Below, piece after piece: positions 5,649 to 29,942 of a DNA stretch of 64,000 nucleotides. The DNA is taken from the NCBI RefSeq assembly GCF_002795805.1, contig NZ_CP018799.1, positions 2,411,001 to 2,475,000 of the forward strand, written 5' to 3'. Below the pieces are notes generated by a model. The model was given only the letters and a program-made list of their open reading frames with translations, was not told the DNA's origin and ran no database searches. This DNA comes from Mariprofundus aestuarium. Lineage in GTDB: Bacteria; Pseudomonadota; Zetaproteobacteria; Mariprofundales; Mariprofundaceae. Position numbers and translations under genes: made by a program. Every line of letters begins with the position of its first letter. Position 1 is the first letter of the stretch.

Positions 5649-7595
5649 CTACGGCCTGTCCTGCTGTATCTTCTGAACGACGGACTGATCTTCCAGCGTT
5701 GAGATATCGGATGTGATTTCGCGACCGGCTGCAATGTCCCTGAGCAGGCGGCGCATAATCTTACCCGAGCGTGTCTTCGGCAGGCTGTCGGCAAAACGGA
5801 TATCGTCCGGCTTGGCTATGGCACCGATCTCTTTTGAGACATGGGCGCGCAGCTCTTCGACCAGGCTATCATCGGGTTCGCACTTGAGTACGACAAATGC
5901 ACAGATCGCTTCGCCCTTGATCGCATCAGGGCGGCCAACCACGGCTGCTTCAGCGACTGCTTCGTGCGACACCAGGGCGGACTCGAGCTCCATCGTTCCC
6001 AGCCTGTGGCCGGATACATTCAGCACATCGTCAACACGGCCCATAACCCAGAAATAACCATCTTCATCGCGTCGTGCGCCATCACCGGCAAAGTAATAGC
6101 GCCCATCAAACTCTTTCCAGTAGGTATCAATGTAACGCTGATCATCACCCCATACGCCACGCAGCATTGATGGCCACGGTTTACGGATGATCAGTAAGCC
6201 ACCACCTTCGGTGATCGGCAAACCGGCTTCATCCACGATATCCGCATCAATACCGGGCAGTGGAAATGTGGCCGACCCCGGCTTGGTCGGGGTCGCAAAG
6301 GGTAGAGGTGCAAGCATGTGGCCGCCTGTTTCAGTCTGCCACCAGGTATCGACAATCGGGCAACGCCCTTTGCCAATCACATCGTGATACCACATCCACG
6401 CCTCCGGATTGATCGGCTCACCTACCGTGCCAAGCACGCGCAGGGATGAGAGGTCATGCTTGTTCGGCCACTCATCGCCTGCCTTATTCAGGGCCCGGAT
6501 AGCGGTCGGTGCAGTATAAAAGATGGTAACCCCGTGATCGGCACAGATTTTCCACAAACGCCCGGGATCGGGATAGGTGGGCACACCCTCATACATCAGA
6601 GTGGTGCCGCCATTGGCGAGAGGACCGTAAACCGAATAGGTATGGCCGGTAATCCAGCCCACATCAGCGGTGCACCAGAAGATGTCGGTCTCTGGCCGGA
6701 AGTCGAAACTCCAGCGCATGGTTACCCTTGCCCAGAGCAGGTAGCCGGCAGTTGAGTGCAGGATACCCTTGGGCTTGCCGGTGGAGCCGGAGGTATAAAG
6801 GATAAACAGCGGGTGCTCAGACTCAACGGCCAGTGGTTCACAATGGTCCGGCTGTACATTGAGAGCATCGTGCCAGTTGATATCACGCCCCTGGCTCCAC
6901 TCCACCTCATTGCCAGCATGGCGAACGACCAGCACATGGGCGACGCTGCGGCAGCCCTCAGAAAGCGCCTCGTCAACATTAGGCTTGAGCGCATGAACAC
7001 CGCCCCGGCGGCCACCGCCATCTGCAGTGATTACCAGTTTTGCCCCCGCATCTTCGATACGGTCGCGCAGTGCCAGCGGTGAGAAGGCACCGAAAACTAC
7101 CGAGTGCACAGCACCGATGCGGGTGCAGGCAAGCATGGCAATGGCAGCCTCCACGATCATCGGCATATAGATAATTACACGGTCACCAGACTCAACACCA
7201 AGCTCCCGCATGGCATTGGCAGCACGGCACACCTCCGAGAGAAGTTTGTTGTAGCTGTAGCGGCGTACCTCTCCGGCTTCGGATTCCCAGATAATGGCGG
7301 TACGTTCGCCCAGGCCAGCCTCGACATGACGATCAAGGCAGTTTTCAGAGAGATTGAGTTTTCCATCCTCAAACCAGCGGAAGAAAGGGGCATTCTCGCT
7401 GTTGAGCACGCGGGTGAATGGTTCGCGCCAAGACAGATGCTCACGGGCCAGTTCCCTCCATGTTGTGTCGAAGTCCGTCTCGAACTGCTGCCTCAGAGTG
7501 CGATACTCCTGCATCGAAGCAATATGCCCCTGATGCCCTTGTGGCGGATTAAATATACGGGTTTCATCCAGAACAGTGGTGATCGCTTCAGACAT
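5649..7595 (-). CDS. acs: acetyl-CoA synthetase
   Basis: A 648-residue AMP-forming enzyme converting acetate, ATP and CoA to acetyl-CoA in the cytoplasm. Motifs: phosphate-binding [11 protein letters not shown] in the middle, the WWQTETGG core motif, the hinge region [13 protein letters not shown], and C-terminal [11 protein letters not shown] with the catalytic Lys that is acetylated in the family. The length is standard. The start is supported by GGAGGA 6 bases upstream. It is divergent from cutA. A deacetylase of the AcuC type in the same neighbourhood suggests control by reversible lysine acetylation. In an autotroph it would allow acetate assimilation or scavenging. Confidence 0.97.
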
Positions 7596-7668
7596 GGGCT
7601 CCTCCAGTGACCTTTCTAGCAGGCTAAAGATATGACGACAACACGCTTTCGCTGATGTGTGAATACGT

Positions 7669-7674
7669 TATGAT
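7669..7674 (+). promoter_or_regulatory. possible -10 box for a leaderless cutA mRNA
   Basis: TATGAT ends 5 bases before the cutA ATG and no Shine-Dalgarno-like sequence lies between the acs and cutA start regions on this strand. The distance would place a transcript start at or beside the initiation codon. The -35 region is poor, so this is tentative. Confidence 0.3.
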
Positions 7675-7679
7675 AGCGA

Positions 7680-8024
7680 ATGCAGAAAATTTGTCTTATC
7701 AAAACCAGTGTCAACTCACTGCAAGAGGCGGAGGAACTGGCAGCAAACCTTGTTAAAACACACTTGGCCGCCTGCATTCAGATCAGTGGCCCGGGAAAAT
7801 CGGTTTATCACTGGCAGGGAAAACTCGAGATGGAGGAAGAGTATTACCTTTCCATCAAAACAGCTCCGGCTCTTCGCGAAACAGCAATTGCACAGCTGGC
7901 CCGCTCTCACCCTTACGAGGTTCCGGAGATCATATGGTCTGAATTCGATACGACAGGTGATTATGGCAGTTGGGTCTACAGTGAGGTCGGTGCTAGCCTA
8001 GCAGCGACAGATACACAGGAGTGA
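7680..8024 (+). CDS. cutA: CutA-like divalent cation tolerance protein
   Basis: A 114-residue protein of the CutA1 family, a small trimeric PII-like fold. It carries the diagnostic HPYEVPEI motif (about 80-87), the ACIQI segment after HLAA, and SVYHWQGKLE. The family was named from copper tolerance in E. coli, but its molecular function remains debated. It lies 3 bases upstream of ccdA, an order also seen in enterobacteria (cutA with a DsbD-family gene), which suggests co-transcription and a link to thiol/metal chemistry in the envelope. Confidence 0.93.
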   Translation: MQKICLIKTSVNSLQEAEELAANLVKTHLAACIQISGPGKSVYHWQGKLEMEEEYYLSIKTAPALRETAIAQLARSHPYEVPEIIWSEFDTTGDYGSWVYSEVGASLAATDTQE

Positions 8025-8027
8025 TCA

Positions 8028-8783
8028 ATGATTGAAGTTACATATGCTGGAGCACTGATAGCGGGATTGCTCTCCTTTCTCTCCCCCTGCGTACTGCCAC
8101 TGGTTCCAGCTTACCTCTCCTACATATCAGGGGTTTCGGTCAATGAGCTGCGTCATCATGATGGTCAGACTGCTTCGGTGCGCAGGCATGCGCTGGCACA
8201 ATCGCTATGGTTCATTGCCGGTTTCAGCCTGGTCTTTATTCTGCTCGGCGCATCGGCATCGCTAATCGGCCAGTGGATGCTGACCAATATGGCGATTCTC
8301 GGAAAGATCGCCGGTGTTATCATCGTTATTTTCGGCCTTCACTATGCAGGCATTATTCGCATCTCCTTCCTGATGATGGAGGCGCGCTTTGAAGCCGGCG
8401 GCGTGAATGCCAAACATGGTGTCGGAGCCCTTGTGCTTGGCGCCGCCTTTGCCTTTGGCTGGACGCCCTGCATAGGCCCTATTCTCGGAGCGATTCTGGC
8501 TGTGGCGGGCGCGCAGGCTGAACTCATGCGCGGGGTATCGCTGCTGGCGGTCTACTCCCTTGGCCTGGCGATTCCATTCCTTCTGGCTGCGCTTGCGACC
8601 GATAGCTTCCTGCGTTGGTCACAGAGCTTTAAACACCACTTCGATCTGATTGAGAAGATTTCGGGGCTACTGCTGATTCTGGTGGGCGCCATGATATTCC
8701 TCGGCAGCTTCAGTGTTGTTTCCGGCTGGCTGATCGAATGGTTTCCGGCCCTTGCCGACATCGAAGGTACATTTTCGCAATGA
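8028..8783 (+). CDS. ccdA: cytochrome c biogenesis protein CcdA (DsbD core family)
   Basis: A 251-residue integral membrane protein with six predicted helices. The two Cys-Pro sites of the family are visible: FLSPCVLPLVPAYLSYISG near the N-terminus and FGWTPCIGPILGAIL in the second half. CcdA moves reducing equivalents from cytoplasmic thioredoxin across the membrane to reduce apocytochrome c haem-binding cysteines. AGGAG precedes the ATG. This function is directly relevant to an organism encoding a c-type outer-membrane cytochrome (24.7-25.9 kb), although the two genes are not linked. Confidence 0.93.
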   Translation: MIEVTYAGALIAGLLSFLSPCVLPLVPAYLSYISGVSVNELRHHDGQTASVRRHALAQSLWFIAGFSLVFILLGASASLIGQWMLTNMAILGKIAGVIIVIFGLHYAGIIRISFLMMEARFEAGGVNAKHGVGALVLGAAFAFGWTPCIGPILGAILAVAGAQAELMRGVSLLAVYSLGLAIPFLLAALATDSFLRWSQSFKHHFDLIEKISGLLLILVGAMIFLGSFSVVSGWLIEWFPALADIEGTFSQ

Positions 8784-22371: not shown

Positions 22372-23025
22372 TTATGGGTTGCCAGCTGGATTCCGCATCA
22401 GTTGTTCACCAACAGCCGCAAACAACTCTTCTGATACATTACGCTTGAGCTTCCTGTCCACCCACTGGCTGTTTTCATACTCCTGCCCAATGACACGCAC
22501 CTCAAGCCCAGCCTTGTCTCCAGAATCAACCAGAACACGCAAGAGGAACCTGTGGCGCGTATAACCTACGATGGAGGGTACGAGGCTCGGGTTATTGTCT
22601 CCTGCACGAACCCAGTCTGATGTGATAATGCCATTGGGTGAATCCACTATATCAACAGGAATGTTCAGCGAATACATCGCATCCGCGGATGCCGAAAAAA
22701 GTTGACCCGGTTGTGCAGAGTAAAAACGGTTCTCCAGAGTTACCGCTCTGCCCTCCAGCATCCGGCTAAACTTATCTGGAAGTGCTCCTGCACGGGCTCC
22801 AACTCTCCCAGCCATAGGTATTTCATACTCAGTCTTAGCTACCTGCGACACCTTTTGAGGCTTTACAGCTTCGGTGTCCGACACCTCTAAAGCATGATCC
22901 TGTTGAGTCTGGCCACCGCCAGTCTCCCACAGCAGTTTCGGCATACTGCTGCACGCAGTGAGCGTCAAAACAATTAGTGATAATAGAAGGCCGTGAACTG
23001 TATATCTCATAGCTGTGGATTCCAT
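22372..23025 (-). CDS. BamC/NlpB-like lipoprotein, paralogue A
   Basis: A 217-residue lipoprotein with a hydrophobic leader and lipobox LTAC, mature start CSSMPKLLW. The following domain has the BamC-like pattern: a Pro-rich linker, a helix-grip start (ENRFYSAQPGQLFSASADAM), PNGIITSDWVRAGD, then RHRFLLRVLVDSG and LEVRVIGQEY strands, and a closing amphipathic helix. E. coli BamC, a BAM-complex lipoprotein, has the same T-T-D-W-V pattern but two such domains; this protein has one. GGAGG precedes the ATG at 23025. An inner Met at 23010 aligns with the start of paralogue C, so the exact start is uncertain. Confidence 0.75.
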   Translation of the reverse strand: MESTAMRYTVHGLLLSLIVLTLTACSSMPKLLWETGGGQTQQDHALEVSDTEAVKPQKVSQVAKTEYEIPMAGRVGARAGALPDKFSRMLEGRAVTLENRFYSAQPGQLFSASADAMYSLNIPVDIVDSPNGIITSDWVRAGDNNPSLVPSIVGYTRHRFLLRVLVDSGDKAGLEVRVIGQEYENSQWVDRKLKRNVSEELFAAVGEQLMRNPAGNP

Positions 23026-23130: not shown

Positions 23131-23838
23131 TTACCTGGCTGGCTCTGCCTCAGCAGAGACTGTCGGAGGCGGAATTCGGCCGACCTGCTTCTCGACTGCA
23201 CCGAAGAGCTCATCACTTCTATTAGGGAGACTTCGCTTATTGACCCAATGACTGTTCTGATATCCTTGGGTAAGCAGGCGCACCTCAAGCCTGCTGCGGT
23301 ATGCCTCCCCCCCTTTCAACTTGAAGACACGCACAATAAATCGGTATCGGATCACCTTGATAGCACCACTCATCCCAATAGAGCCCATCATCACGTCCGA
23401 AAAGCCTTCCTGACCCTTCCTGACCCAGTCCGTGGTGATAATTCCGCTTGGTGAATCTACCGAATTGACCGGCAGGTTCAGCAGGGTCATCGCATCGACT
23501 ACCGACGATAGCAGCTGCCCCGGTTGTATTTTATAAAGGCGTGCACTCAGCGCTACTGGCTTGCCAGCTACCGCCTCAGCATACCTCTCAGGAAGCGGAG
23601 CAGCACTTGCAGTCAACTCGACACCCTTCTCGGCCACGGGCAAGTCAAGCTCACCCTTAAGCTCAGGAGGAAGTTCAAGTGGAGCGCGAGTTGCAACCTT
23701 TCCGGATGTGGTGGCTACGCCGCTGCTCTCATCAGTATCCCAGAACATCTTGGGCATACTGCTGCATGCAGAAAGGGAGATAAGCATAGAACATAACAGG
23801 AGGTAGCGATCAAAATGTCTCATAAATTCGGATTCCAT
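23131..23838 (-). CDS. BamC/NlpB-like lipoprotein, paralogue B
   Basis: A 235-residue paralogue of the neighbours on both sides, with lipobox LSAC and mature start CSSMPKMFW. The core reads ARLYKIQPGQLLSSVVDAM, SPSGIITTDWVRKG, RYRFIVRVFKLKGG, LEVRLLTQGYQNSHWV. Relative to paralogue A it has an insertion before the RYRF strand. The sequence just upstream (TTGACCCGGAGGC ... TGGATGGAATCC) is nearly the same as upstream of paralogue A, so the duplication included the translation-initiation region. Ser at +2 predicts outer-membrane sorting by the Lol rule. Confidence 0.75.
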   Translation of the reverse strand: MESEFMRHFDRYLLLCSMLISLSACSSMPKMFWDTDESSGVATTSGKVATRAPLELPPELKGELDLPVAEKGVELTASAAPLPERYAEAVAGKPVALSARLYKIQPGQLLSSVVDAMTLLNLPVNSVDSPSGIITTDWVRKGQEGFSDVMMGSIGMSGAIKVIRYRFIVRVFKLKGGEAYRSRLEVRLLTQGYQNSHWVNKRSLPNRSDELFGAVEKQVGRIPPPTVSAEAEPAR

Positions 23839-23912: not shown

Positions 23913-24548
23913 CTATCTGGGGGAGATCCGCCCTGTTTTGCCATGCATGCGGCCAAGCTGTAGTTCAACCTCGCCAAACAGGCCTGCCCCATCCGACATA
24001 TGTGTTCGCGTATTAACCCAGCTCTGGCCTTGATACGCCTGGTTGAGTATACGCACCTCAAGCCGGCTTTTCTGCTGCCCCCCCTGCAGACTAAAGATTC
24101 GCAGAATATAGCGGTGGCGCGTCGCCTTCGGTGAAGAGTCACCCAGAAGATTCTCTAAAATGCCTTTACCTTCCGGCATCTTCCTGATCCAGCCCGAGAT
24201 AATAGTACCACTAGGCAAATCAGCTGAGGTTACTGGAATATTCAATGATGCCATCGCCTTATCTGCTACTGAGAAGAGATGACGAGCATCTACATTGTAT
24301 TGACGTGCGTGAACTGCAACCGCATTACCCGCCACAGCCTGACTATAACCATCCGGTATCTGGCTTGTATCCGTACTGGTTGCTTCTATCAGTGTCGGCG
24401 GCACATCGAGAGGGAGATCATCACCCGATGCATAATCGGGCCGGCCTGTCCCTTCATCATGGCTCCAGAATAGCTTGGGCATGCTGTCGCAGCCTGCCAT
24501 TGAAAATAGCAGCGAAATGATAAGAAGGGGGCGAACGATGTTTTTCAT
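23913..24548 (-). CDS. BamC/NlpB-like lipoprotein, paralogue C (Asp at +2)
   Basis: A 211-residue paralogue, nearest to cyc2. Lipobox MAGC and mature start CDSMPKLFW, so Asp follows the lipidated Cys; in E. coli Asp+2 retains lipoproteins in the inner membrane. A BamC-like Pro-rich segment DLPLDVPPTL precedes the domain: ARQYNVDARHLFSVADKAM, PSGTIISGWIRK, RHRYILRIFSLQGG, LEVRILNQAYQGQSWVNTR. In place of TTDWV it has ISGWI, the most diverged of the three. It starts 160 bases beyond the cyc2 stop, behind two terminators, so it probably has its own promoter or relies on read-through. Confidence 0.75.
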   Translation of the reverse strand: MKNIVRPLLIISLLFSMAGCDSMPKLFWSHDEGTGRPDYASGDDLPLDVPPTLIEATSTDTSQIPDGYSQAVAGNAVAVHARQYNVDARHLFSVADKAMASLNIPVTSADLPSGTIISGWIRKMPEGKGILENLLGDSSPKATRHRYILRIFSLQGGQQKSRLEVRILNQAYQGQSWVNTRTHMSDGAGLFGEVELQLGRMHGKTGRISPR

Positions 24549-24610
24549 GGAGCGGGATTCCAGCCCATGGCTTGCGATAGGTCAAGCATGGCCTCATCGG
24601 CATTTTGAAA

Positions 24611-24647
24611 TAAAAAAAAAAGAGGAGGGCCGAAGCCCCCCTCTCTT
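24611..24647 (-). terminator. second of two tandem UUCG-loop terminators after cyc2
   Basis: On the minus strand the arms AGAGGGGGGC and GCCCTCCTCT close a TTCG tetraloop (stem 24621-24644 region) and are followed by a long T run. One pair is a G-U wobble on the minus strand but a mismatch on the plus strand, which fixes the direction. Confidence 0.9.
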
Positions 24648-24650
24648 AGA

Positions 24651-24681
24651 GAAAAAAAGAGGGAGGCCGAAGCCTCCCTCT
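24651..24681 (-). terminator. first of two tandem UUCG-loop terminators after cyc2
   Basis: Perfect 10-bp stem: on the minus strand AGAGGGAGGC, loop TTCG, GCCTCCCTCT (24681 down to 24658), then seven T residues. It lies 28 bases past the cyc2 stop. The UUCG loop makes it unusually stable. Confidence 0.93.
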
Positions 24682-24708
24682 CTAGACACTAGACTTTGAA
24701 GTCCGCTA

Positions 24709-25926
24709 TTACAGCAGTGCTTCGATGTCGATAGTAGTAGTCTTCGTAGTAGAAGAACCACCAGCTACGAGAGTAGTCTTAGCATTCTTGTAGATCAGAG
24801 CCAGTACGAAGTTCTGATAAACTTCATATTCAGCACCAACAGTCCACTGCGCCAGTTTACGAGCGCCGTTTTTCAGCTGACCAATACCAGCCATAGCAAC
24901 GATTGTGTGGGTAGGCTTAACGTGTGCACGGAAAGAGTAACCCTTATCAGCAGTCAGAGCTGGGTTGAACAGGTTAAGCTTAGTTGCAGTAGACGCAGCA
25001 GCGTTTGCATAGTCAGCATAAACACCGATACCGATGTCGCCGATTTCGCCCTGAAGCTGTCCATCAATCATCCATTTCTTCATAGCTAGGGTATTACCAG
25101 GTGCGGCCAGTGCAGTAGTAGTCTGCAGGTTACCGGTATTACCGCTAGTGATGCCGAAACCAATACCTGCTTCCATGCCGCCAACTTCAGGAGTTACGAA
25201 CACACGTGCAGATGGAGCCAGTTTCCAACCGTTACCAACACCACCGACTGCAGCTGCAGTACCAGTGATCAGGGAAACAGAAGCGTTAACCAGTTCGTTA
25301 CCATAGTAGAAGCCTACGCCGCCAGTACCGCCAGCGTTACCAGAAAGCTGGTTAGAAGCTGAGATAGACTTGCCGCCCAGAAGGCCACCGTGCTGACCGA
25401 AAGTAGAACCACCTTCCAGAGCATAAGTTTCGCCGAAGCCAGAGTTAAAGATAGAAACACCAACTTTACCGCCACCAGCATCGATAGCGTGAGACAGCTT
25501 GAAGTTAGCGAAAGTTCCGTCGTATTCTACGAAAGTACCAGTGTTGGTGCCAACACGGCCACCGAAGATCAGTACAGCATCAGCTGGGATGGTTGCAGTC
25601 TTAGTCGTAGTAGATGCGCCACCAGTAGTGGAAGTGGTGCTAGATACGAAGTTAGGACGCAGAACCAGAGTCATGTTTACTGATGAAGTGATAGACATGT
25701 GGTCATCTTCAACCAGAGCCTGCTCACCAACGTCAGTCAGTGCGCCCTGTTTGAATGAGCGACCGAACGCGTTCAGCGCTGGGAAGCTAAGGTGGTGACA
25801 TGCCAAGCAAGCAGCACCAGTCTGGCGTGCAAACGCCGGAATTGCTTCAGAAGTGGTTGGAGCAACTGCAACAGCAGAAACAGCAACAACAGCGAAAGCA
25901 GCAGCAGAAAGAAGCATCTTCTTCAT
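24709..25926 (-). CDS. cyc2: Cyc2-like outer-membrane cytochrome-porin fusion
   Basis: A 405-residue protein with a signal peptide (cleavage about SEA-28/IPAF) and one haem c site, CLACH at residues 40-44, set in IPAFARQTGAACLACHH followed by FPALNAFGRSFK. This arrangement is typical of Cyc2-family iron oxidases of acidophilic and neutrophilic iron oxidisers. The rest (about 60-405) is Gly/Ala/Thr/Ser-rich with alternating amphipathic strands, consistent with a 14-18 strand beta-barrel. Only one CxxCH is present and there is no large multihaem region, unlike MtoA/MtrA. Expected role: accept electrons from Fe(II) at the cell surface and pass them inward. Codon use is visibly more biased than in neighbours and a double terminator follows, suggesting very high expression. 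Confidence 0.85.
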   Translation of the reverse strand: MKKMLLSAAAFAVVAVSAVAVAPTTSEAIPAFARQTGAACLACHHLSFPALNAFGRSFKQGALTDVGEQALVEDDHMSITSSVNMTLVLRPNFVSSTTSTTGGASTTTKTATIPADAVLIFGGRVGTNTGTFVEYDGTFANFKLSHAIDAGGGKVGVSIFNSGFGETYALEGGSTFGQHGGLLGGKSISASNQLSGNAGGTGGVGFYYGNELVNASVSLITGTAAAVGGVGNGWKLAPSARVFVTPEVGGMEAGIGFGITSGNTGNLQTTTALAAPGNTLAMKKWMIDGQLQGEIGDIGIGVYADYANAAASTATKLNLFNPALTADKGYSFRAHVKPTHTIVAMAGIGQLKNGARKLAQWTVGAEYEVYQNFVLALIYKNAKTTLVAGGSSTTKTTTIDIEALL

Positions 25927-26045
25927 GTTGTGATATCCTCGTAAAAAATTATTTGACCCCGTGGAGCCAGTGCAAATGTTTCCATCCTTTAGTGTAGAAG
26001 CAGTGTTATCCGCTTCCCCCCACGGGATGATGTTGCGAACATTGC

Positions 26046-26059
26046 GTGATCCAGGTCAC
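26046..26059. promoter_or_regulatory. CRP/FNR-type dyad GTGA-N6-TCAC
   Basis: GTGATCCAGGTCAC has the half-site arrangement recognised by CRP-family regulators, though the outer TG/CA bases of the full consensus are not both present. It lies 120 bases upstream of the cyc2 start codon. Confidence 0.35.
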
Positions 26060-26083
26060 TGGGTCAACACGGCACACCCAACG

Positions 26084-26100
26084 TGTGTCATTTTGACACA
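26084..26100. promoter_or_regulatory. perfect 17-base palindromic operator candidate
   Basis: TGTGTCA-TTT-TGACACA is a perfect 7-base inverted repeat with a 3-base centre, in the intergenic region 158 bases before cyc2 and 223 bases before the sulfotransferase. The right half contains TTGACA, a consensus -35, on the plus strand, so a bound protein could block that promoter. Confidence 0.5.
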
Positions 26101-26322: not shown

Positions 26323-28014
26323 ATGGCTGTAACAATCAAACTTTCAAATAACAAGAAGCGGCAACTGACTGCTTTAGCCGAACAGGCGGTTGGCCTTGCA
26401 AAAAATGGCCATCATCCTGCCGCCCTCAAAATTTGCGCCAAGGCCGATGTGCTGTACAGGGATCATCCAGACACCATGTATGCACGTGGATTAATCGCCG
26501 CCCTGCAACGCGACAACACCAAAGCCATCGAGTGGTTTGAGCGTGCCTGTCACGCCGCGCCAAAACGACTGGAATTTATGGTAAATTACGCCGGCTGTTT
26601 GTTAATGAATGAGCAGGAAGAACAAGCAGCCGAGATTTACCCTAAGATACTGGCTAAATCACCGCGCCTGTTTGAGGCAGTCTACGGATATGGCGTGGCA
26701 CTCGAGGCCATTGGGGAATTCCAGCATGCTTTACAGGTATTTGAAAAGGCACTGAGCCTGGACCCACGAAATATTAAGCTGATTCAAAAAGTGGCAGACA
26801 TGCGCAATGACTTCGCTGAAACCAAAGACACAATGACATTGCTTGAAAAAGCGCACTCTATAGCACCAGACAATGCCCAAATACTGTATGATATGGGTAT
26901 ATATCTTGTTCAGCAGGGTGAGCTTAAAGCAGCCCGGATTCATTTTCGCAAAGCACTGACTCTCGATCCTGAGTACGTTAAAGCATTGGGAGTTCTGATC
27001 AACAGCGGTCGTTATGACCAGCGGGATGAAGACCTAGCACAGATGCGTAAACTCTATAGTCAGTCAGAGCACATGAGTGAACAACAGGCAATTTCTGCCT
27101 TTGTACTCGGCAAAGCAGCCGATAGCGCCAAGGAGTACGATCAAGCCTTTGCCTATTGGGCGGAAGCCAATCATCTGCATAGACAGTTTATACGCTATGA
27201 TGAAGCAGAACAGGAAACCATGCACCAAGCGGCCATGGAAGCATTCACTGCCCAACGTTTCAGCGAACCCGTCAGTATAGAGACAAGTAAAGCGGCCCCA
27301 ATATTTATCGCTGGCACGCCTCGCTGTGGCTCCACTTTGCTGGAACAAGCACTATCTCGCCATCCGGCATTACAGGCTTCAGGTGAAATGTATGCCATGC
27401 AGCAATCCATCGTCGGTCGAAAACGTAAAGTATGCAATGCCGATCTTATCAAAAAACTGAAAACATTGGATGATAAGGAAATGGCGGATGTAGGCAAAGA
27501 GTACGAGCGGCGAATATTACACGAGTACGGACTCCAAGGGAGAGTGCTCGACAAAACACTGAACAATTATATGTATGCAGGTCTGATTGCCAGAGCCCTG
27601 CCACGGGCTCGCATTATCCACATCAAGCGAGAACCCATGGCCGCCTGCCTCTCCATGTACCAAGAGAACTTCGCAGGCTCTTTACCATATGCATTTGATC
27701 TCGATGAATTGGGACGTCAGTACATTCGATATCAAAAACTGATGCAGCACTGGCGCGAGGTATTGCCTGCCGGGGTGATGCTGGAGACAAGCTATGAAGA
27801 TCTGGTAAGCACACCAGAAGCAGAACTGCGCCGCCTGCTGGAAGGGTGTGGTCTGGAATGGCATGAGGATTGCCTGAGTTCACATAAATCCAAAGGCGTG
27901 GTAACCACAGCTAGCATATTCCAGGTACGTAAGCCTATGCATCAGAAATCTGTGGCGCGCTGGAAGCACTATGAAAAGCAGCTGGCACCACTCAGAAAAC
28001 TTATTAACGGGTAG
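26323..28014 (+). CDS. TPR-repeat sulfotransferase, paralogue 1
   Basis: A 563-residue fusion. Residues about 1-260 are tetratricopeptide-like helices (PAALKICAKADVLYRDHPDT, ALQVFEKALSLDPRNIKL, AARIHFRKALTLDPEYVKAL). Residues about 325-560 are a sulfotransferase domain with the PAPS 5'-phosphosulfate loop GTPRCGSTLLEQ (from residue 331), the 3'-phosphate segment IIHIKREPMAACLSMY and a C-terminal KPMHQKSVARWKHYEKQLAP. Such proteins transfer sulfate from PAPS to a carbohydrate or protein hydroxyl; the acceptor is unknown. No signal peptide, so cytoplasmic. It is divergent from cyc2 and followed by a paralogue. The GAGGG upstream supports the start. Confidence 0.85.
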   Translation: MAVTIKLSNNKKRQLTALAEQAVGLAKNGHHPAALKICAKADVLYRDHPDTMYARGLIAALQRDNTKAIEWFERACHAAPKRLEFMVNYAGCLLMNEQEEQAAEIYPKILAKSPRLFEAVYGYGVALEAIGEFQHALQVFEKALSLDPRNIKLIQKVADMRNDFAETKDTMTLLEKAHSIAPDNAQILYDMGIYLVQQGELKAARIHFRKALTLDPEYVKALGVLINSGRYDQRDEDLAQMRKLYSQSEHMSEQQAISAFVLGKAADSAKEYDQAFAYWAEANHLHRQFIRYDEAEQETMHQAAMEAFTAQRFSEPVSIETSKAAPIFIAGTPRCGSTLLEQALSRHPALQASGEMYAMQQSIVGRKRKVCNADLIKKLKTLDDKEMADVGKEYERRILHEYGLQGRVLDKTLNNYMYAGLIARALPRARIIHIKREPMAACLSMYQENFAGSLPYAFDLDELGRQYIRYQKLMQHWREVLPAGVMLETSYEDLVSTPEAELRRLLEGCGLEWHEDCLSSHKSKGVVTTASIFQVRKPMHQKSVARWKHYEKQLAPLRKLING

Positions 28015-28244
28015 TAATACAAATTCTGATATTCACCCGATTCAAACCGCCAGATACCTTGCTAACAGCCTTCTGGACTCAGATGACCCATATGACGCTA
28101 GGGGCAAAGATGGCAACATGTCGGGGCATATAGTCATCGTTATTTCGCAGCCATGATTAACATGCTCGTTAAGCTACCTACCCTTAAGAATTAAGATTGA
28201 TGCGATTGCAATCAAGCAGTAACGTAGGCGAAGAGAGGAGCAAC

Positions 28245-29942
28245 ATGGCAGCAATGAAAATTTCCAACAACAAGAAACGGAAGCTGATAACCCTCACCAG
28301 CCAGGCCATAGATTTGGCCAAAAAAGGGAAGCTGGAAATGGCCCTGCGGATCTGTGATCGGGCGGATCGCGAACACAAGAACTTTCCCGACATCATGTAT
28401 GCCCGCGGTTTGATTGCCGCCTTACAACAGGATTATGTCACTGCTATCACATGGATGGGGCAAGCCTGTCAGGCCGCGCCGAAATCCCAGCAATTTCAGA
28501 TCAATTATGCCAGCTGTCTGCTTTTAAATCATCAGGAAGAGGATGCGGCCAAACTTTATTCGAAGATACTCGCACACTCACCACGCCTGTTCGAATCTGC
28601 CAATGGATATGAGTCATATGGTTCAGCACTTGAGGCCATCGGAGAATTCAGGCACGCCATTCAACTTTTTGAAAAAGGTCTAAACATCAACCCAAACAAT
28701 TTAGCACTGCTCCAGAAACTCATCTCACTGCGTAACAACTTGCAGGAAAGCAAAACAGTACTGCCTATGCTTGAAGGTTTACATGCAGTTGATCCCAGCA
28801 ATGCCGATCTACTCTTCAGCATTGGCGTATGTCTTGTCCGCGAGGGGAATATGGAATCTGCGAAAGCACGCTTCAAGGAAGCACTGTCCCTTAACCAGCA
28901 TCATGCAAAGGCACTCAGCATGTTACTGCGCAACGATCCCGATGCTGAATGGGAAACAAACCTTGCCACCATGCGTGAGATTTACGATCAAGCAGGCTCA
29001 ACCATTGAATCGCAAATTACAGCCGCCTTTGCGCTGGGACGGGCGGCTGACAGAAACTCACAATACGAACAGGCTTTTACCTGTTATGCCAAGGGAAACC
29101 GCTTGCGGCGAGAGTTTGTAAACTATGATGAAAGCGAGCAGGAGAACTTGCATCAGACCGCTTCAGGTTCGTTCCCTGCCACGCGTTTTATTGACCCGGT
29201 CAGCACAGAGGCCAATGCAGCAGCCCCGATATTTATTATTGGAATGCCCCGGTGCGGTTCAACATTATTGGAACAGGCGTTGTCACGCCACCCTGCATTG
29301 AAACCGTCCGGAGAAACTGATGCCATGCAGCAATCCATCGCTGGTCGCAAGCGCAAGGTGAGTAATCCGCTGCTCATCGAAAGATTGGCATCTCTGAATA
29401 ATGCAGAACTCCTGACTGTCGGACAGGAGTACTCACGAAGACTGCAACAGGAATATCTCCTTGATGGGCGGGTAATTGATAAAACCCTGAACAACTATCT
29501 GTATGCTGGCGCTATTGCCAAAGCCCTGCCCCAAGCACGCATCATCCATGTCAGGCGTGAGGCAATGGCCTCCTGTCTCTCCATGTTTCAGGAGGATTTT
29601 GCCGATGCCGTGCCTTACTCCCTTGAAATTGGCGAGCTCGGGCGCCAATACGCACGTTATCAGCGACTGATGCAGCATTGGCGCGAAGTTCTTCCGGAGG
29701 GAGTCATGCTGGAAGTGAGCTATGAGGATCTTGTGACTAATCCTGAAAGCGAACTGCGTCGACTGCTCGAAGGTTGCAACCTAGAGTGGTACGAGGAGTG
29801 CATAGCTACGCATAAGGCTACAGGTTCGGTAGCCACCGCCAGCCTCGTCCAAGTACGCAAACCGATTCATCAAAAATCAGTGGCGCGTTGGAAGCACTAC
29901 GAAAAACAACTAGAACCTATCAAACAGCACCTTCTGGCGTGA
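28245..29942 (+). CDS. TPR-repeat sulfotransferase, paralogue 2
   Basis: A 565-residue paralogue of the previous gene with the same order: TPR helices, then a sulfotransferase domain (GMPRCGSTLLEQ at about 333, IIHVRREAMASCLSMF, KPIHQKSVARWKHYEKQLEP). The start MAAMKISNNKK aligns with MAVTIKLSNNKK of paralogue 1 and has GAGGAG upstream; the open frame extends to 28197 but is not supported. A few extra residues occur in the third TPR (GYESYGSALEAIGEF against GYGVALEAIGEF). The 50 bases before both starts share GATGCG, CAAGCAGTAA and CAACATGGC blocks. The tandem copy is therefore a local duplication including the leader. Confidence 0.85.
   Translation: MAAMKISNNKKRKLITLTSQAIDLAKKGKLEMALRICDRADREHKNFPDIMYARGLIAALQQDYVTAITWMGQACQAAPKSQQFQINYASCLLLNHQEEDAAKLYSKILAHSPRLFESANGYESYGSALEAIGEFRHAIQLFEKGLNINPNNLALLQKLISLRNNLQESKTVLPMLEGLHAVDPSNADLLFSIGVCLVREGNMESAKARFKEALSLNQHHAKALSMLLRNDPDAEWETNLATMREIYDQAGSTIESQITAAFALGRAADRNSQYEQAFTCYAKGNRLRREFVNYDESEQENLHQTASGSFPATRFIDPVSTEANAAAPIFIIGMPRCGSTLLEQALSRHPALKPSGETDAMQQSIAGRKRKVSNPLLIERLASLNNAELLTVGQEYSRRLQQEYLLDGRVIDKTLNNYLYAGAIAKALPQARIIHVRREAMASCLSMFQEDFADAVPYSLEIGELGRQYARYQRLMQHWREVLPEGVMLEVSYEDLVTNPESELRRLLEGCNLEWYEECIATHKATGSVATASLVQVRKPIHQKSVARWKHYEKQLEPIKQHLLA

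Follow-up and report, generated by a model that had tools for sequence, protein, structure and literature searches.

A probable Cyc2 Fe(II) oxidase of Mariprofundus aestuarium and the conserved region in front of its gene

The open reading frame at 24709..25926 on the minus strand of the window, a stretch of 64,000 nucleotides (bases 2411001-2475000) from the single closed contig of 2,537,610 bases that makes up the host genome, very probably (a probability of about 0.94) encodes a Mariprofundus Cyc2, an Fe(II) oxidase that belongs to the type widespread among Zetaproteobacteria (Cluster 1). The gene encodes a fused monohaem cytochrome-porin of 405 amino acids and starts with ATG; the sequence-only reading had its limits exactly right, stop codon included, and gave no strand. 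Neutrophilic iron oxidisers take in electrons through Cyc2, and its gene has been proposed as a marker for iron oxidation; a correct call therefore fixes the metabolism of the organism. The cyc2 gene itself is already known, having been reported in the strains CP-5 and CP-8, which grow obligately on Fe(II) (PMC5513912), and what looks new is a conserved control region before the gene.

Haem segment, barrel and relatives of the gene product

Searches of Pfam, NCBIfam and PDB sequences gave no family match for the gene product, which is a gap in these libraries and not evidence against Cyc2, and therefore the published criteria for Cyc2 were applied. These are the motif AXPXFAR[Q/K][T/Y], a CXXCH with PXL four residues on, a length of at least 365 amino acids, a 16-strand OprO/OprP-like outer-membrane porin domain, a signal peptide, and a haem domain that plugs the barrel at its periplasmic mouth (PMC8406198). 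The signature AIPAFARQT, as the motif is defined in PMC8406198, is found at residues 28-36 (25819..25845, minus) upstream of the haem site. The haem-binding CLACH (C40-L-A-C-H44; 25795..25809, minus) lies inside IPAFARQTGAACLACHH (residues 29-45), is the sole CxxCH of the product, and is followed by H45 and, four residues past the site, by P49-A-L51; the FGRSFK segment occupies residues 54-59, and the length of 405 residues compares with the required 365. By inspection, residues 1-28 (25843..25926, minus) form a typical signal peptide that begins with MKK, has a hydrophobic core, would be cleaved between SEA and IPAF, and is conserved across the alignment. The haem site, the FGRSFK segment and the signal peptide had all been named in the sequence-only reading; the first two are confirmed, and the third looks typical.

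That reading had also proposed a long beta-barrel-like region. An AlphaFold2 model built from an alignment of 30 sequences contains a confident barrel at residues 81-405 (24712..25686, minus), with a mean pLDDT of 79 and a pTM of 0.79; the haem domain has a pLDDT below 60. DSSP assigns 18 strand segments to the model, or 16 if the two broken strands flanking loop 1 are merged, and the latter reading would give the modelled barrel 16 strands. The top structural matches of the barrel are OprO (4rjw, Z 22.4) and OprP (2o4v, Z 22.1), with 3.4 Å over about 300 residues and 12-13% identity, and these are the porins named for the Cyc2 of M. ferrooxydans PV-1 (PMC8406198). Q178-H179, a loop pair invariant in the 30-row alignment, was considered as a distal ligand or Fe site and rejected as a general Cyc2 ligand because 36 of the 55 sequences have H179 and the other clusters lack it.

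Chance is excluded by 30 full-length homologues (window gene included), which are 44-75% identical to the window protein and have invariant haem and porin positions. P30, R34, G37, C40, C43, H44, P49, G55 and F58 are invariant across the 55 full-length homologues. The residue after CxxCH is His (CHH) in the window protein as against the usual Phe (CHF) of Cyc2 homologues; residue 45 is His in 5/55 sequences, all of the nearest clade, and Phe in most others. A protein with 75% identity is encoded by a congener (G008; one contig of 2.3 Mb), and that of M. micogutta ET2 is 69-72% identical to the window Cyc2. Within the host genome the window gene is the sole full-length Cyc2 found by genome search; the third match, at C1:2100842 (E 0.23), overlies an unrelated open reading frame without a haem site and was dismissed as chance.

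In a tree of the 55 full-length sequences, the window Cyc2 joins the genes of the nearest Mariprofundus, and together with 34 other zetaproteobacterial-type sequences and L091 it forms a group with 99/99 support that includes no named Cyc2 reference. L091, a Cyc2 on a long branch, comes from a different family of the phylum; two cytochrome c genes, each encoding two haem sites, stand behind its gene. Separate branches are formed by the FARKY-type sequences of Zetaproteobacteria and by the other FARQT-type sequences. We infer that these branches match the published Clusters 1 (zetaproteobacterial and Gallionellaceae-type Cyc2), 3 (FARKY) and 2 (other FARQT), which would place the window gene in Cluster 1. 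Cluster 1 is present in all zetaproteobacterial OTUs (PMC7029218). Five Cyc2 variants (L092, L093, L094, L095 and L067) combine the usual N-terminus with a strongly diverged barrel, mostly have CHFQAIPR..FGR.F after the haem site, and form a branch of their own with 98/97 support. Two adjacent cyc2 genes with identical scores (G055:C314:4817-6034 and 7043-8260), about 1 kb apart in the genome of one relative, represent either a tandem duplication or an assembly artefact.

The Cyc2-type reading of the gene thus stands on the tested sequence features, on fold matches to the porins named for Cyc2, and on a place in the tree among zetaproteobacterial Cyc2s. Two of its phrases need revision. The protein had been called a surface Fe(II) oxidase, and outer-membrane is the safer word because the one haem should lie close to where the barrel opens to the periplasm. 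Cyc2 had also been called the leading candidate for the iron oxidase; the role holds and the wording is outdated, since the standing of Cyc2 has been stronger than that since 2021, when Fe(II) was shown to reduce the M. ferrooxydans PV-1 protein (PMC8406198). It is improbable that the window protein, as a cytochrome-porin of the Cyc2 family, takes its electrons in the cell not from Fe(II) but from a different metal or a small organic compound. Function is untested across much of the Cyc2 tree (PMC8406198), and homologues of the haem domain occur far beyond iron oxidisers, for example on Caballeronia plasmids (61% identity over 39 residues); however, the gene is the only full-length cyc2 of its genome, all indirect evidence assigns its product to the type of the PV-1 protein, which Fe(II) reduces, and the host, if it is CP-5, used Fe(II) alone among the tested growth substrates (PMC5513912). 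That the product is an ordinary porin bearing a degenerate haem motif is scarcely credible, even though the barrel and its fold matches are those of general porins and the haem domain is poorly modelled, since the haem segment is the best conserved part of the 55 full-length homologues and it is the barrel that diverges.

Codon use and the region upstream of cyc2

The biased codon use suspected from the sequence is real. The effective number of codons of cyc2 is 32.2, the lowest among the 44 open reading frames of the window, the others having values of 42.6-61. Its codon adaptation index (CAI) is 0.813, against a mean of 0.72 for 21 reference genes (ribosomal genes, elongation factors and rpoA) under leave-one-out scoring, and is higher than that of every one of them, EF-Tu (0.77) and EF-G (0.79) included. 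This agrees with published Mariprofundaceae metatranscriptomes, where the top-expressed gene is often a Cluster 1 cyc2 (PMC7029218). Behind the gene, two intrinsic terminators with TTCG loops, each a hairpin with a T tract, lie at 24656..24683 and 24618..24647 (minus), and the fold z of this region is -5.4. The double terminator had been taken as a sign of high expression; it is present, and it fits such expression without being evidence for it. The relatives examined all keep one TTCG-type hairpin after cyc2, and the doubling is not general.

A common layout emerges from 41 cyc2 upstream regions: a TGTG-N9-CACA dyad, 15-17 bp, TTGAC, about 17 bp, and a -10-like CANNGT, often with TCGC. In the window these elements are a perfect 17-bp dyad TGTGTCA-AAA-TGACACA (26084..26100, minus), a putative -35 TTGACC (26062..26067, minus) 16 bp downstream of it, recognised by comparison of upstream regions, and a putative -10 CAATGT (26039..26044, minus) followed by the conserved TCGC. 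The spacer between the two putative promoter elements carries a second dyad, GTGA-N6-TCAC (26046..26059, minus), which is present in 20/41 upstream regions and which we take to resemble sites of the CRP/FNR family. The TGTG-N9-CACA dyad, a feature of nearly all zetaproteobacterial cyc2 genes, scores at least 8/10 in 38 of the 41 regions, against 0.011 per sequence in composition shuffles, and it holds its position while the flanking DNA diverges. Every other site in the host genome differs from the 17-bp dyad at two or more positions; a copy with two mismatches at C1:1271257 belongs to a repeat near unrelated genes and was set aside. A search with the dyad-plus-promoter pattern matched cyc2 alone in the host genome and in two others (G020 and G038), while in each of G008 and G010 it matched cyc2 and one further site; there were no matches in the controls and no exact match in three further genomes. 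It is proposed that the TGTG-N9-CACA dyad may bind a regulator.

Closer to the gene, a stem-loop TGGCTC-CACG-GGGTCA (25954..25969, minus) lies in the 5'-UTR about 27 nucleotides ahead of the start codon and before the ribosome-binding site GAGG (25937..25940, minus; by inspection), and it is common to most zetaproteobacterial cyc2 genes. Covariation was tested on 29 of 42 sequences, picked mainly for showing the stem-loop; most of the 13 omitted have no evident stem-loop there. The stem pairs in 98.3% of cells, a percentage inflated by this choice of sequences, as against 10-52% in slid-partner controls; the choice does not inflate the compensatory changes, 18 cells being altered on both sides with pairing kept, at 5/6 stem pairs. 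The length of the loop varies from 3 to 8 nt across relatives. Rfam matches in the upstream region are all far under thresholds, and an alternative long 5'-UTR pairing in the window was dropped as showing no apparent conservation. The stem-loop is proposed to protect the mRNA or to keep the ribosome-binding site open.

These observations lead to the hypothesis, to which we give an even chance, that a family-wide cis module controls zetaproteobacterial cyc2, with a putative TGTG-N9-CACA operator that keeps a set distance to a TTGAC promoter and occurs at no gene of the genome but cyc2, a regulator that binds this operator and responds to Fe(II) or to redox state, and a 5'-UTR stem-loop that keeps the transcript abundant. 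It is considerably less likely that the upstream repeats have no function and owe their conservation to descent, or that the one ahead of the ribosome-binding site acts as a DNA operator and not as an RNA stem-loop. All the compared sequences are orthologous upstream regions, and the 13 left out of the covariation test, mostly without an evident stem-loop, also speak for such an explanation; but the two-sided changes that keep the stem paired, the variable loop, which is unlike an operator, and an upstream dyad that stays in place amid diverging DNA stand against it. Expression of cyc2 rises after addition of Fe(II) (PMC7029218). No named cyc2 regulator was noticed in that paper, and no published account of the dyad, the promoter layout or the stem-loop was found in the part of the literature covered by the search. 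The dyad and stem-loop of the proposed control module offer a concrete start on how, or whether, these bacteria regulate cyc2, and a handle for spotting highly expressed cyc2 in metagenomes.

If the protein follows its family, the Cyc2 precursor would be exported, haem c would be attached to C40 and C43, and the barrel would insert into the outer membrane, the N-terminal haem domain lying at the mouth that faces the periplasm. Fe2+ in solution would then enter the pore and pass one electron to the haem, from which a periplasmic cytochrome would take it to a terminal oxidase or uphill to NADH. A dedicated promoter with its upstream dyad would give high Cyc2 output, together with optimal codons and the stem-loop that precedes the ribosome-binding site.

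Neighbouring genes and free-standing haem proteins

Downstream of the cyc2 terminators lie three co-directional tandem paralogues encoding BamC-like lipoproteins, A (23913..24548), B (23131..23838) and C (22372..23025), all on the minus strand. They carry a lipobox (e.g. LSACSS) and are the sole BamC-like genes found in the host genome, most relatives having a single copy, to which B is the closest paralogue. One of the three reaches 16.3 bits against the Pfam Lipoprotein_18 cut-off of 25, and the other two matched DUF3576 alone, under its cut-off. Foldseek ranks BamC at the top (6lys_C, E 3e-6, and 2yh6_A), and VIA gives Z 10.8 for BamC with comparable Z for other folds. Each lipoprotein has one such domain, whereas E. 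coli BamC has two. Lipoprotein A has its own putative promoter (TTGACC 24585..24580, 17 bp, TGGAAT 24562..24557; minus), and some 8 bp separate this conserved element from the ATG, suggesting leaderless mRNAs.

The lipoproteins were considered as a dedicated assembly factor for Cyc2, and this idea is weakened. In Mariprofundus and some further genera, though not everywhere, the lipoprotein genes are linked to cyc2; a dedicated functional tie is unsupported because several lineages have the lipoproteins on contigs other than that of cyc2, and because two tested genomes of genus g9 keep cyc2 while the lipoprotein was not found in them. The whole gshA-cyc2-lipoprotein-trpC stretch is conserved in many relatives, which was also counted against such a role. 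On the other side, and divergent from cyc2, are two tandem genes (26323-28014 and 28197-29942) encoding TPR repeats fused to a sulfotransferase domain, homologues of which occur near cyc2 in several relatives.

The second match of the genome search, at C1:19301, was rejected as a second Cyc2. It is a Cyc2-type haem protein of 77 residues (C1:19253-19483; L004 7251-7484, minus) with a signal peptide and the haem segment AIPSFSRQ..CRTCH...LNKFGREFK, and without a barrel. Such proteins, of about 76-98 residues and without a Pfam family, are found in nine of the zetaproteobacterial genomes searched (L004, also L052-L058). In five Mariprofundus genomes the gene stands directly behind a MerR-like regulator gene, with a glutathione-peroxidase-like gene beyond the regulator (Pfam checked on one), and in 3 of these 5 a photolyase-like gene follows it, a setting that looks as if it were a light or oxidative stress group. 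The barrel-less protein may be a Cyc2-derived electron carrier, or may resemble the cytochrome ancestor of Cyc2.

Comparison with known Cyc2 proteins and porins

The phosphate porins OprO and OprP share the barrel fold with Cyc2 (Z 22) and, unlike it, have no cytochrome domain. The Cluster 3-type (FARKY) Cyc2 of other Zetaproteobacteria, partly of the same organisms, is also a cytochrome-porin fusion, but it forms a separate, fully supported branch, has the motif VFARKYG and is 446-483 residues long; the genome search found none in the host. A biochemically studied counterpart is the Cyc2 of M. ferrooxydans PV-1 (AKN78226; PMC8406198), which is the same fusion of a monohaem cytochrome with an OprO/OprP-like porin, has the same signature motifs and comes from the same genus; the PV-1 and window genomes have one recognised cyc2-type oxidase gene each. 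The PV-1 protein is reduced by Fe(II) (PMC8406198) and has been tested biochemically, whereas the window Cyc2 is known here from sequence and model, and H45 after CxxCH, a trait of its nearest clade, is named as a difference from PV-1 Cyc2. The genomes of CP-5 and CP-8 are closed and measure 2.54 and 2.30 Mb (PMC5513912); the cyc2 of M. aestuarium CP-5 (PMC5513912) is very probably the gene described here, and that of M. ferrinatatus CP-8 (PMC5513912) is very probably the gene of the relative G008.
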